Notes under the pieces: model-generated | Told to the model about the DNA's origin: nothing | The model's input: only the letters and a program-made list of their open reading frames with translations | Databases searched by the model: none | Shown here: in pieces, positions 52,801 through 58,407 of the stretch | How positions within the stretch are numbered: the first letter of the stretch is position 1 | Layout: each line of letters starts with the position of its first letter | Origin: Nodosilinea sp. P-1105 | Lineage (GTDB): Bacteria > Cyanobacteriota > Cyanobacteriia > Phormidesmidales > Phormidesmidaceae | Direction of reading: 5' to 3' | Assembly (NCBI RefSeq): GCF_012911975.1 | Contig: NZ_SMDQ01000002.1 | Coordinates: forward strand, 1-64,000 | Length of the DNA: 64,000 nucleotides | Position numbers and translations under genes: made by a program

Positions 52801-53510
52801 AGCCAGAATTAGCCTGATGATCTCAACAGTCCGGAATACGATCGTGTCACCCCTCTTATCACCACCTGCGACCATCAGCAGTATTAGTCTACTGAAGTCA
52901 ACCAGCAGCGATCGCGAGATGCCATCAGAAGCACTATTTCAGCTTAACGGGCACAATAAATAATGACTTTCCAGGGTTCACCTCCTTTCCCTGCCATCGC
53001 TACCTGTTGCAGCGACCAGAGATGAACCCCCAAAAATGTCAGGCTAAAGCCTTAGTGGGAATGCTCACCAAACCAATCGACTGCGAACCTTGGCCACAAC
53101 TGTGATCAGGGCTTTCGTCTGAAATACTGGATTCTTGAAGAGTAGAACAGTTACTACTACCAGGAATCTCCATAGGTTGATATAGCCTCAGCTAAAAGAC
53201 AAATCTTGCAAAAATTTAGAATTGCTATTCTGAGTTCGCAAGCCTTGAATAAAGTAGCAACAATACACCCCTAATGTCAATTTTAATCCTTTGTTAATCT
53301 AAGCAGCCACGCTGTTTTGAAGGGCATCGGCTTAAACATATGGTCCGGACACTTTGCTGAGCAAGCGTTGAGATCCTTGATTTCTCGTTAGCTGGGTTGC
53401 TGGGGAAGAAGTCTGAAACCCGCATTCTACCCACAGCCATCAAAACCTGTCCGGAGTGTTGTTAAAGCGGGACAACTCTCCTGGGCAGCCGTCAGCAGCG
53501 AGAATAATAC

Positions 53511-53629
53511 TGGCTTCTGGCTTCTGGCTTCTGGCTTCTGGCTCCTGGCTTCTGGCTTCTGGCTCCTGGCTCCTGGCTTCTGGCTTCTGGCTTCTGGCTT
53601 CTGGCTTCTGGCTTCTGGCTCCTGGCTCC
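53511..53629 (+). repeat. 17-unit heptamer array TGGCTTC/TGGCTCC
   Basis: Seventeen uninterrupted 7-bp units, twelve TGGCTTC and five TGGCTCC, were counted directly. The heptanucleotide array type (STRR) is known from filamentous cyanobacteria. It ends about 100 bp before the ParA start and so lies in its promoter region. Confidence 0.95.
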
Positions 53630-53730
53630 TAAATTCCTTATTGTGGAACATTGTTTTTGATGGATTAGTCGCAACTTGCAGTACCATTCCAGACGATCCC
53701 CACAGTGGCTATATTTTGGAGGGCAACCCC

Positions 53731-54384
53731 TTGACGGCATCCTCAACCACTCCCATCGTTCTGGTGATTTTGAATGGTAAAGGGGGCGTTGGTAAAACCA
53801 CCACCGCCGTTAACCTGGCGGCCATTTTTGCCGAAACCCAGTCAGTGCTGCTGGTCGATGCCGATTCCCAAGGTTCAGCCAGTTGGTGGACGGGCCGTAG
53901 CCCAAACGCATTGGGGTTTGATGTGGTACAAGCCGAAAGCCCCGCCCAACTGGGGCAGTTACCCCAGCTGCAGACCCATCGCCTGGTGATTGTCGATACG
54001 CCCCCTGCCCTCGGCTCTGAGGCCCTAGCGGCGGTGATTCCAGTGGCTGACTATATTCTACTGCCGACCCCCCCCGCCCCCATGGACTTAGCCGCCTTAA
54101 TTACTACAGTGAATGAAGCGGTAGCGCCCAGTGGGGTCGCCCATCGAGTATTGTTGACGAAAGTGGATTCCCGCAGCGTGGGGGAAGCCATTGAAGCCCA
54201 AAATACCCTGCTTGAGCTCAACATCCCGGCCTGTAACGCCTTTATTCGAGCTTATAAAGCCCATGAGCGAGCGGCCCTAGAGGGAATTCCGGTGCTCAAG
54301 TGGAAGGGAAAAAACAGCCAGGAAGCCCGTTCTGACTACTGCCGAGTCGCCGAAGAAATACAGCGAGACTGGAAGCCGCTATGA
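53731..54384 (+). CDS. ParA/MinD family ATPase, possible McdA
   Basis: I start it at TTG 53731 because GGAGG lies nine bases upstream; the longer frame from 53641 comes out of the repeat. The 217-residue protein has the deviant Walker A LNGKGGVGKTTTAVNLA with signature lysine, LLVDADSQGSAS and VIVDTPPALGSEAL. Such ATPases position plasmids, chromosomes, carboxysomes or clusters on the nucleoid. The next gene overlaps by four bases and encodes a disordered coiled-coil protein rather than ParB, which resembles the McdA-McdB arrangement for carboxysome spacing. Confidence 0.88.
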   Translation: MTASSTTPIVLVILNGKGGVGKTTTAVNLAAIFAETQSVLLVDADSQGSASWWTGRSPNALGFDVVQAESPAQLGQLPQLQTHRLVIVDTPPALGSEALAAVIPVADYILLPTPPAPMDLAALITTVNEAVAPSGVAHRVLLTKVDSRSVGEAIEAQNTLLELNIPACNAFIRAYKAHERAALEGIPVLKWKGKNSQEARSDYCRVAEEIQRDWKPL

Positions 54385-55172
54385 CTAAGAAACGCCTCTC
54401 TGATTTGTTAAAAGAAGAAGTTAATAAGGCTGACACCCCAGCGGAATCAGCCCCTGAACCCGAGGCCGATGCTGCCCAGGCTGAACCCGAGGCTAAGCCT
54501 GCTGCTAGCAAAACCACCAGTCGCCGGGCGTCGTCTGCAAGTCGGCGCACCAGTAGCAGCCGCCAAACCGGCAAACCGGCCCGGTCTACCCGATCGACCA
54601 AGACCACAGGTAAAACCACCAGCCAGAAAAAAAACGACACCACCGCCGCTAAAACCACGACTCCATCGACGCCAAAAGCTAAGGCCGAATCTACAGCGAC
54701 GACCACTCCGGCGATCGCCTCTGAGGCTGCCGCTACCCCTGATCTGGCGGCAACTGTCAAAACCCTGGAGCAAGACCTAGCCGCTGCCGCCACGGAAAAG
54801 ACTCGTTTAGAAAAAGTGGTGGAAGGGTTACAAAAGGACTTAGACACTCAACAGGCCAGACTGTTTGAGCTAAAAGACAGCCTTGACCAGGCCGAGGCCA
54901 CCAGCAAAGCTAAGGCAGATGCACTGACCAAAACCCAGGCTGAACTAGAGGACGCTAAGAAGACAATCCTGCAGCTAACCGAAGCTAATGCCAAGGCCCC
55001 TGTGCCGGTGAAGTCAACATCGACTCGGCGGTCGGGTATCGACATTTTGCCCCGACGCCCAGTGGAATCTGCATCCCAGAAACACTATCACCGGGGAGTA
55101 CCGGAAACATCGGTGGAAAAAAGCCAGCCCAATCCCATGTTGTCAGATGCCGACATTGGCTGGGTGGATTAG
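54381..55172 (+). CDS. disordered coiled-coil partner of ParA, possible McdB (type 2)
   Basis: The 263-residue protein has an acidic, alanine-rich N-terminus, a Ser/Thr/Lys/Arg low-complexity stretch (about 50-95), a coiled coil (about 115-205; TVKTLEQDLAAAATEKTRLE) and a conserved-looking end DADIGWVD with a tryptophan two residues before the last. McdB proteins are variable, largely disordered, coiled-coil proteins with a tryptophan at the extreme C-terminus. The stop codon TAG is the edge of a family-3 repeat. Other ParA partners (cluster or pilus positioning) remain possible. Confidence 0.72.
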   Translation: MTKKRLSDLLKEEVNKADTPAESAPEPEADAAQAEPEAKPAASKTTSRRASSASRRTSSSRQTGKPARSTRSTKTTGKTTSQKKNDTTAAKTTTPSTPKAKAESTATTTPAIASEAAATPDLAATVKTLEQDLAAAATEKTRLEKVVEGLQKDLDTQQARLFELKDSLDQAEATSKAKADALTKTQAELEDAKKTILQLTEANAKAPVPVKSTSTRRSGIDILPRRPVESASQKHYHRGVPETSVEKSQPNPMLSDADIGWVD

Positions 55173-55255
55173 TACGGCCTGGCAGAAAGGTGACCACCGT
55201 TGCTGAGGGTATCAGGTTCTAGGTGTCAGCTATCAGGACTGGTTGATCGGCTGCT
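55170..55255 (-). repeat. family-3 dispersed repeat, copy 3 (inverted)
   Basis: On the minus strand it reads CCTGATAGCTGACACCTAGA, CCTGATACCCTCAGCAACGG and CTGCCAGGCCGTACTA. Its terminal TAG is the stop of the upstream gene. Confidence 0.78.
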
Positions 55256-55266
55256 GCTGCAGGCCA

Positions 55267-55509
55267 CTAGGGAACATAATCAAAAAGGGCGTCTAAGTAA
55301 ATACGGTTGATGTCGCGATCGCCCTTGGCGGCAAGGGTTTGAGGATCCGAGGGGCGATTCTGCATTAAAAATAGCGACAGGGCCGCGCAGAATACCCGGT
55401 GCTGACTCCAAGCCGGGTTGCGATCGAGATATTGCTGCAAAGCATCATTTAACTCCTCGGGAATTTCAGCCATGAGACTGACACTGGGGGTGGTGGAGGA
55501 AAGGGTCAC
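55267..55509 (-). CDS. DUF2811 family protein
   Basis: The 80-residue protein contains IPEELNDALQQYLDRNPAWS and HRVFCAALSLFLMQN, the conserved core of a small cyanobacterial family. It ends with an YLDALFDYV helix. The first ATG is 55509; an internal ATG at 55473 (MAEIPEEL) may be the true start. Function unknown. Confidence 0.75.
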   Translation of the reverse strand: MTLSSTTPSVSLMAEIPEELNDALQQYLDRNPAWSQHRVFCAALSLFLMQNRPSDPQTLAAKGDRDINRIYLDALFDYVP

Positions 55510-55833
55510 TGGGGAAAGTCTCCTTACGCAGGCGCGATCATAGATAAGGCATAACTAGACACGGCAAAGCCGCGCCTCACCGACTGTCTACTCCCCCCAC
55601 CTGCGCACCTTTAAGCACAAGGAGGGAGCCAAATAACATTCACAGCCAGGGCGCTAGATGTCGCTCGTCGCATTATTCTGCCCAACTCCCTCAGGGCTGT
55701 CAATCTTGCGCTTCAAGCCATTTTGCCCTAGCGCCCACCAGGGGGCACGGCGGCATTAGGGTTTGAGCGATCGCAGCCCCAGCGGGCCGCCCTGATTCAC
55801 CAGGATGAGGGCACTGGGGAACTGGAGATTAGG

Positions 55834-55940
55834 TTTTCCACAGATCACCCCCTGTTGCCTGTCTCGGCCAACTAGCCTGTGGAAAAGTCGCAAAAACCTG
55901 GGGAAAACCTGGGGAAAACCTGGGGAAAGCTGGGGGAAAA
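55834..55940. other. DnaA-box cluster, possible replication origin
   Basis: TTTTCCACA (55834-55842) and its reverse TGTGGAAAA (55878-55886) match the cyanobacterial DnaA box. They are followed by TGGGGAAAA at 55899 and 55910, TGGGGAAAG at 55921 and a TGGGGGAAAA at 55931, each one mismatch or little more from the box and spaced 10-11 bp. An AT-richer stretch (about 55949-55975) follows. dnaA and dnaN are not nearby. The whole gap 55510-56070 has no gene. Confidence 0.5.
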
Positions 55941-56070
55941 CTCGGGTCAACCCAAAAGTTTTATTACAGTTTGGCGATTAGAGTCTTGACGTGATTCGGA
56001 AGAGGCGTTTCAGCAGGTCATGGCGCGGCAGTATACCCCCGAGGGATTATTGAGCAGCTGCCTTCTGCCT

Positions 56071-56619
56071 TTACTGCTCCCTGTCACCATCAGCTTGGTC
56101 AAGGACTATCCCCAGGGGCTCCCCTGGCAAGGGTGGCCACTGAATATCCCATAGGCCCCAGGCGGCGATCGCCAGCAGCAGCCCCACCGCCCCTAGGCGT
56201 ACCCATAGCCCCAGGGGGCGATCGCCAGACCAGACCAGGCGAGTGCTGCCTTCTCCAGCCATGAAGCGGTGCAGGTCGGCCATTAGGGTGGCTGCCGATA
56301 GGGGGCTGCGAATGTTTGGCAGGGTGTATTCACCGCGATCGCCCACCAACGTTAGGCAATGGCAAAATCTCACGCCGCCTCGGGGGATGTTGTCGCACAG
56401 CTCTGAGGCTACCCTGATATCCACTAGCTGAAACCGTTGGTGAGACACCCAGCCGCGTCCCCCCAATTGGGCCTGACTCGCCTCACAGACCACCCCCGCA
56501 GCGGTGACCTCACAGGCCACGGTGTAAGGGCTAGGAACCAACAGACCGTAGATAGCGAACACCAGTCCACAGATCACAGCTATGACTGGCACGCGCCAGG
56601 GTTGCCTCGGGTTTTCCAT
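56071..56619 (-). CDS. membrane protein of unknown function
   Basis: I start it at the ATG at 56619, preceded by GAGGTGAG. The 182-residue protein has two membrane spans (VIAVICGLVFAIYGLLV and LGAVGLLLAIAAWGLW) with about 100 residues between, including four cysteines (ACEV, VCEA, LCDN, FCHC). The order suggests an extracytoplasmic disulfide domain. Family not recognised. Confidence 0.75.
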   Translation of the reverse strand: MENPRQPWRVPVIAVICGLVFAIYGLLVPSPYTVACEVTAAGVVCEASQAQLGGRGWVSHQRFQLVDIRVASELCDNIPRGGVRFCHCLTLVGDRGEYTLPNIRSPLSAATLMADLHRFMAGEGSTRLVWSGDRPLGLWVRLGAVGLLLAIAAWGLWDIQWPPLPGEPLGIVLDQADGDREQ

Positions 56620-56778
56620 CTCACCTCGTCCTGTTGTCAACCCTTCACCTGTAAAGGATTAGGGACATATTGTCATCTACTCCATAGCTTAGTCCTTGGG
56701 CCATGCCAACCGTCGTGGTGCCTCCGGCCAAAGTCAATCTACGGTAAGGTATAGACGCCGACCGCCTGCAAAAAAGTC

Positions 56779-58407
56779 ATGTCTCAGCCTTCTCCCTCTC
56801 CCATCTCCCGACCAAAGAAACCCCCTGGCGCCGGCAACATTAAGCTGCGAGGATTTGACTTTCATCCTCAAGTCTTTTTGATTTCGGTCAGCCTGATTAT
56901 CCTGTTTGTGTCCCTCACCCTGCTCTTTCGTCAGCCGGCTGAAACCGCCTTTGGGACGGTTCAAACCTTTATTACCACCACCATGGGCTGGTTCATGATT
57001 CTGGCGGCCACCCTCTATTTGGGTGTCGTCGTGCTGGTGGCCCTGAGTAAGTTCGGTAAGGTGCGCTTGGGAGGGCCTGAGGCAAGGCCTGATTTCCCCA
57101 CATCGGCCTGGCTGGCCATGCTGATGAGTGCCGGTATGGGCATTGGCTTGATGTTTTGGAGTGTGGCCGAGCCGATTGAGCACTTTCAAAATCCACCGTC
57201 TCCGATGGGCATAGTGGAACCGAATACCGCCGCCGCCGCTAAGCAAGCCATGGGGCTGACCTTCTTCCACTGGACATTCCATGCCTGGGGCATCTATACC
57301 CTGGTGGGGCTGGCCCTGGCCTTTTTTGCCTATAACCGGGGCCTACCTCTGACCATGCGCTCAGTGTTCTATCCCCTACTGGGCGATCGTATTTATGGGC
57401 CGATCGGCAATGCGGTGGATATTCTGGCGATCGCCGCCACCCTGTTTGGCCTTGCCACCTCCTTGGGACTGGGGGTGCAGCAGGTGAACGCTGGGCTGGA
57501 ATTTTTATTTACCGTGCCCGTCAGTGTTGGCATTCAGGTGGCCCTGATTGCGATTATCACCGGGTTCGCCACTGCCTCAGTCATGTCTGGTCTGGATGCC
57601 GGGGTGCGTCGCCTTAGCGAACTGAACATGATCTTGGCCGGCATTCTGATGGTGTTTGTGTTGCTGGTCGGCCCGACGCTGTTTATCCTGCACTCTTTTG
57701 TCGAAGATATTGGGTATTACCTGTCGATCTTACCCACCATGAGCTTTTGGACCCAGGCCTTTGAAGGGGCCACCTGGCAGCGGGAATGGACGCTCTTTTA
57801 CTGGGGCTGGTGGATTTCCTGGTCCCCTTACGTGGGCATCTTTATCGCCAGGGTGTCCCGGGGCCGCACCATCCGAGAATTTGTCCTGGGGGTGCTGCTA
57901 CTGCCCTCGCTGTTGACTTTTTTGTGGATGTCGGTGATGGGGGGGACTGCCTTGAATATGGAGTTGGGCGATTTTCCTGGCTTAATTACCGCAGCGGTAT
58001 CGGACAACTTGGCCACCGCCCTGTTTGTGATGTTGCAACAATTGCCCCTGGCCAGCCTTACCTCCCTAGTGGCCATCATCTTAGTTGTGGTCTTCTTTGT
58101 CACCTCTTCTGACTCAGGCTCTCTGGTGATTGACAACCTGGCCGCTGGCGGCAAAGTCCACACCCCCACGACTCAGCGTGTCTTTTGGGCCGTGGCCGAG
58201 GGCGTTGTGGCCGGTGCACTACTGCTGGGCGGCGGGCTACAAGCCTTGCAAACAGCCGCGATCGCTACTGGCTTGCCCTTTGCCATCGTGCTGTTGATCA
58301 TGTGCTTTAGCCTTTACAAAGGTCTGTCGCAGGAAATGGCCCTCGCCGCAGCAACGGCTAAGCCCCTAGCCTCAAGTGCTGCGAAGCCAGATCAGTCCCA
58401 ATCATAG
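56779..58407 (+). CDS. BCCT family betaine/choline/carnitine transporter
   Basis: The 542-residue protein has about 12 spans and the BCCT tryptophan-rich signature (ATWQREWTLFYWGWWISWSP), plus MSAGMGIGLMFWSVAEPIEH. It imports glycine betaine or related osmolytes with Na+. It overlaps no other gene and is followed by an SDR after 12 bp. Confidence 0.94.
   Translation: MSQPSPSPISRPKKPPGAGNIKLRGFDFHPQVFLISVSLIILFVSLTLLFRQPAETAFGTVQTFITTTMGWFMILAATLYLGVVVLVALSKFGKVRLGGPEARPDFPTSAWLAMLMSAGMGIGLMFWSVAEPIEHFQNPPSPMGIVEPNTAAAAKQAMGLTFFHWTFHAWGIYTLVGLALAFFAYNRGLPLTMRSVFYPLLGDRIYGPIGNAVDILAIAATLFGLATSLGLGVQQVNAGLEFLFTVPVSVGIQVALIAIITGFATASVMSGLDAGVRRLSELNMILAGILMVFVLLVGPTLFILHSFVEDIGYYLSILPTMSFWTQAFEGATWQREWTLFYWGWWISWSPYVGIFIARVSRGRTIREFVLGVLLLPSLLTFLWMSVMGGTALNMELGDFPGLITAAVSDNLATALFVMLQQLPLASLTSLVAIILVVVFFVTSSDSGSLVIDNLAAGGKVHTPTTQRVFWAVAEGVVAGALLLGGGLQALQTAAIATGLPFAIVLLIMCFSLYKGLSQEMALAAATAKPLASSAAKPDQSQS

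Follow-up and report, generated by a model that had tools for sequence, protein, structure and literature searches.

The cluster of DnaA boxes at 55834-55940 of the window (the whole stretch of 64,000 nucleotides analyzed here) is most likely a DnaA-binding control element of the promoter of a DUF2811 gene, whose product, within this reading, is probably a feedback component of DnaA-dependent initiation. Considered separately, the feedback role is a tentative proposal. The support at sequence level consists of the array itself, a promoter-like element, a fixed spacing between the two, conservation across the Cyanobacteriia, covariation with origin boxes, decay in genomes without dnaA, and a near-nested pattern of gene loss. 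DnaA occupancy, the direction of regulation and the role of the protein are what we infer from these features.

The box array and its conserved module

Two perfect boxes face each other, as an earlier note on this DNA described (Table 1). That note also listed four variants at 10-11 bp steps; the spacing holds, although only the first two units are exact TTTTCCCCA. On the plus strand the variants read TGGGGAAAA at 55899 and 55910, TGGGGAAAG at 55921 and TGGGGGAAAA at 55931. The AT-richer stretch reported past the boxes is present as well, at about 55955-55980; this side of the array shows no evident copy of the conserved AATTCTTAT element that other families have there. An inverted box at 43-46 bp is seen in other families too.

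Table 1. Features of the DUF2811 locus and its upstream array, in window coordinates
Feature	Position	Strand	Basis or remark
DUF2811 (PF10929) gene, 80 aa, GTG start	55267-55509	-	ORF; Pfam 78 bits against a curated cut-off of 26.6; start agrees with relatives
Promoter-like element: TTGACA (55703-55698), N18, AGAATAAT	55673-55703	-	Sequence match; conserved block, cross-family consensus
Perfect box TTTTCCACA	55834-55842	+	Inverted relative to array; next box offset 44 bp
Perfect box TTTTCCACA	55878-55886	-	Final box of the tandem; TTGACA follows 183 bp downstream
Degenerate box unit	55888-55896		
Tandem box variants TTTTCCCCA (two), CTTTCCCCA, TTTTCCCCCA	55899-55940	-	Steps of 11, 11 and 10 bp
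AT-richer flank beyond array	55941-55985	none	Sequence

The site holds several 9-mers matching the cyanobacterial DnaA box in about 100 bp, above chance: four exact TTTTCC(A/C)CA sites are packed into 110 bp, against at most two in 300 sequences drawn from a first-order Markov model of the window. Across the 6.0 Mb assembly, the array is the sole occurrence both of a convergent perfect pair (gap 25-55) and of a tandem TGGGGAAA pair. Tandem perfect boxes within 30 bp are found at two other genomic places, the dnaN locus and the upstream side of a second DUF2811 gene, at a distance of about 400 bp.

Comparison of 55267-56075 with 57 genomes (its own and relatives) reveals three conserved blocks, namely the DUF2811 coding region (a member of the family by its Pfam score), the box array and, between them, noncoding sequence at about 55663-55712. 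At a fixed distance from the promoter-like element, the boxes lie in a promoter region, as at DnaA-regulated promoters, with the promoter itself recognized by sequence match. The distance from the box at 55886 to the TTGACA at 55703 recurs exactly, at 183 bp, in the second DUF2811 copy of the genome. Together, the array and the promoter-like element form a conserved module upstream of DUF2811. A search of 55000-57000 against Rfam gave a single match, with an E-value of 0.65, far below cut-off.

The module extends well beyond close relatives. Among named genomes (the best 80 of 510 DUF2811 relatives), TTTTCC(A/C)CA occurs at 225 sites in the 93,220 bp that lie within 1.2 kb upstream of DUF2811, 206 of them oriented as the gene, and at 17 sites in the remaining 443,090 bp of these loci. 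At least one upstream site is present in 77 of the 78 named loci with more than 580 bp upstream, the exception being L071; L039 and L040, which offer only about 300 bp, were left out of this count. A survey of the phylum found at least one box upstream in 86/90 loci. The four box-less ones belong to G105, which has no dnaA, to a second copy in G213, and to G048 and G286, both of which carry TTATCCACA. Additional loci have an upstream box in 28 of 29 cases, and the 29th offers just 283 bp of upstream sequence. The boxes persist in differing gene surroundings. DUF2811 also occurs in 13 plasmid records, with TT(T/A)TCC(A/C)CA upstream in six of the seven examined; L296-L302 are examples from large cyanobacterial plasmids (Acaryochloris, Nostoc, Leptolyngbya), and the majority have upstream DnaA boxes.

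A consensus from 25 loci in 19 families begins with the AATTCTTAT element, followed by boxes in steps of about 11, 11, 21-22 and 21-22 bp, then, some 44 bp further, an inverted box-like GGGGATTT, and finally CATTGACA-N18/19-ACAATG. The spacing from a box to TTGACA is 182-184 bp in 51/90 survey loci, representing 18/27 families, whereas the distance from TTGACA to the gene varies from 78 to 425 bp. In the named set, a box and TTGACA are 180-213 bp apart in 72/78 loci, and in 45 of these the spacing is 182-184 bp. No TTGACA was found 110-260 bp downstream of a TT(T/A)TCCACA box in 21/90 loci, including 12/13 from family f2.

The earlier note also pointed to an adjacent ParA-type gene. Such a gene is indeed nearby (about 53746-54384), but the link is incidental, because ParA joins DUF2811 in only 14 of the 80 named loci (best 80 of 510), all close relatives of the window copy. 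ParA was rejected as a replication partner on the same grounds. The plus-strand region 53746-55172 encodes the ParA-type ATPase and then a low-complexity coiled-coil protein with a DIGWVD end, a pairing with a C-terminal tryptophan that recalls the carboxysome-positioning proteins McdA/McdB as described (PMC11321042). Just upstream of the ParA gene, a short tandem repeat gives overlapping minus-strand ORFs of repeated RSQKPEA units (53427-53746).

DnaA as the likely reader of the array

The likely reader of the array is DnaA, as suggested by three lines of comparative evidence: covariation with the dnaN-side origin, array decay in genomes without dnaA, and co-occurrence of the two genes. The first two indirectly favor the DnaA-box identity proposed in the earlier note. 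Moreover, the array boxes match the cyanobacterial DnaA box as published (PMC4674748).

Box spelling varies together at the two loci. In G048 and G286 alike, nine copies of TTATCCACA stand at dnaN and three at DUF2811, and the TTTT form is found at neither locus; G349, a third member of this family, likewise has TTATCCACA at DUF2811. Spelling is mixed at dnaN and DUF2811 alike in G327, and the congeners G008 and G025 have TTTTCCCCA at dnaN, as in the window array. This test draws on few genomes, because dnaN is without boxes in several of the dnaA-positive ones. Five dnaN-side regions from dnaA-positive genomes (L218, L219, L222, L223 and L225) are without DnaA boxes upstream of dnaN, so the origin of those genomes lies elsewhere.

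Co-occurrence was scored in 292 genomes, of which 139 are members of the class (122 with dnaA and 17 without). DUF2811 is present in 122/122 dnaA-positive class members, absent from 13 of the 17 dnaA-less ones and present in the other four; all 13 DUF2811-less class members are thus also dnaA-less (Fisher p = 3.7e-15, ignoring phylogeny). The double losses fall in f28 g42, f28 g41, f29 g72, f31 and f38, which are family and genus labels and not positions on a tree. Outside the class, members of the phylum carry dnaA but no DUF2811, except for one below-cut-off match (G155), and DUF2811 is therefore a trait of the class Cyanobacteriia. Among further class genomes, 31/32 have DUF2811 (G294 was already in the sample, and the new ones were scored for DUF2811 alone); G337, scored in the same way, has none. 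Loss of dnaA is reported for some free-living cyanobacteria (PMC7198777), and the shared loss could reflect a common lifestyle or ploidy.

The dnaA-less genomes that retain DUF2811 show a disturbed module. In G105 (L149) the array is gone, whereas three boxes are present in each of two dnaA-positive relatives, G169 and G207; the G105 gene is intact, and the flanking AATTCTTAT and promoter-like elements remain. G195 (L251) has two in-frame stops in DUF2811 and keeps one inverted box. G229 (L150) and G313 (L151) have one exact box each, fewer than G191, in which a third box with a single mismatch joins two exact ones. The boxes kept in G195, G229 and G313 count against DnaA as the reader. Side by side, G105, G229, G313 and G195 look like stages of module loss, with the array missing, the array eroded, or the gene interrupted by stops.

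Titration, autoregulation and the replication origin

Box clusters away from oriC affect initiation in other bacteria (PMC5295017), and such clusters are rare in this genome. The array might therefore act mainly as a titration or activity-switch site for DnaA, comparable to the Bacillus subtilis clusters or Escherichia coli datA and DARS, with DUF2811 as a passenger. This reading is unlikely given the fixed 183 bp to the promoter-like element, an association with DUF2811 that holds in differing gene contexts and on plasmids, and the way in which DUF2811 loss tracks dnaA loss. Titration, also offered in the earlier note, takes second place, since the array is tied to a single gene and the promoter-like element of that gene instead of lying free in the chromosome.

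It is quite unlikely that the DUF2811 protein itself binds the array in an autoregulatory loop, possibly also binding origin boxes in competition with DnaA. Such a loop would suit the linkage of array and gene in cis, direct repeats at 11 bp steps are appropriate for small dimeric DNA-binding proteins, and covariation with origin boxes would also be expected if DUF2811 bound oriC. However, the dnaA-less G105 keeps an intact gene although its array is gone, the boxes match the published DnaA box, and a ribbon-helix-helix relation is unsupported.

Two predicted models of DUF2811, both of low confidence (pLDDT 61 and 66), have three helices and no strand, and searches with them using Foldseek and VIA-align gave no convincing match. 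A ribbon-helix-helix fold, prompted by a sequence pattern, gained no support from hhalign (probability 3 against 21 RHH_1 fragments), and the models are too weak to weigh against it. The best hit in a sequence search of the PDB had an E-value of 0.95, and no DUF2811 was found in phages at E 0.01.

That the cluster is a chromosomal origin, as the earlier note had entertained, or a second origin is very improbable. Its origin-like boxes and AT-richer flank fit this idea, and irregular replication is described for cyanobacteria, some species having multiple origins (PMC7198777). However, the usual position of oriC in cyanobacteria is beside dnaN (PMC4674748). The window site adjoins neither dnaN nor dnaA, which, in agreement with the earlier note, lie away from it on contigs C167 and C174, respectively. 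A box cluster sits right beside dnaN, and the candidate oriC is probably there, judging from the boxes. In single-contig genomes the DUF2811 gene is far from dnaN.

DnaA-trios, and possibly skew, also argue against an origin at the cluster. The host chromosome is assembled in 195 contigs; skew was sampled in the window and in the congener G008. GC skew in the window is negative on both sides of the site, with no switch. In G008, cumulative skew from 40 samples of 20 kb, a weak and noisy signal, reaches its minimum at 2.74-2.89 Mb, near dnaN at 2.92 Mb; the DUF2811 arrays are at 2.07 and 5.58 Mb. DnaA-trios, described as an origin feature (PMC8287927), occur within 100 bp of a box in 15/21 dnaN loci holding at least three boxes, in 1/20 with fewer, and in 2/90 DUF2811 loci by a strict TAG criterion, in a set to which the window does not belong; inspection of the window by eye found none. 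The dnaN-side origin of G037 (L038 1430-1551) combines tandem boxes spaced 11 bp apart, like those of DUF2811 arrays, with TAGTAGTAG trios.

A proposed role for DUF2811 and known DnaA-regulated systems

In the most likely mechanism, DnaA would assemble on the helically phased boxes and act on the promoter fixed 183 bp downstream; either activation or repression could result. Against this, most known DnaA-regulated sites are closer to their promoter than the roughly 180 bp of this array. The output of DUF2811 would then follow the level or nucleotide state of DnaA, and its product would most likely take part in DnaA-dependent initiation, perhaps as a brake. Loss of DUF2811 almost only where dnaA is lost suggests that the product probably acts in this process and is therefore probably an unrecognized part of replication control. 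A possible, though still tentative, interpretation is that DUF2811 is a previously unrecognized cyanobacterial partner or regulator of DnaA (for example, an initiation brake), under direct DnaA control through a very old and rigid array-promoter module that is lost or decays as lineages abandon DnaA.

DnaA is reported to be essential in Synechococcus elongatus (PMC7198777). A genome of this species, included as a control, has a DUF2811 match. A small gene shared by all the surveyed class genomes with dnaA, absent almost exclusively where dnaA is absent too, and equipped with its own DnaA-box array bears on how cyanobacteria regulate DnaA and on why several lineages drop it. The array also calls for caution in origin prediction, as a cyanobacterial box cluster may be a DUF2811 control element and not oriC. 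In the literature searched, a scope that leaves out most subscription journals, the family name is unmentioned and a link to DnaA unnamed. DnaA-regulated promoters are already known; the novelty lies in the target, a single small gene from an uncharacterized family with a rigid cis module kept through the class.

Three known systems offer partial parallels. At the sda promoter region of Bacillus subtilis, DnaA is described as binding directly (PMC8203912), and the likeness lies in the inferred direct DnaA control of a gene tying replication to another pathway. However, DUF2811 is a different family with no connection to Sda or sporulation, is nearly universal in the Cyanobacteriia, and has about 180 bp between its array and the promoter-like element downstream. 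The DnaA-box clusters of B. subtilis and the datA and DARS sites of E. coli are likewise box clusters away from oriC, but their reported effect is on DnaA itself, on its amount or its nucleotide state (PMC5295017), whereas the cyanobacterial array is locked to one gene. Finally, the cyanobacterial oriC at dnaN (PMC4674748) shares the TTTTCCACA boxes, with spelling matched within the genome; in contrast, the DUF2811 array is without dnaN, is nearly devoid of DnaA-trios, and is set at a fixed distance from a promoter-like element.
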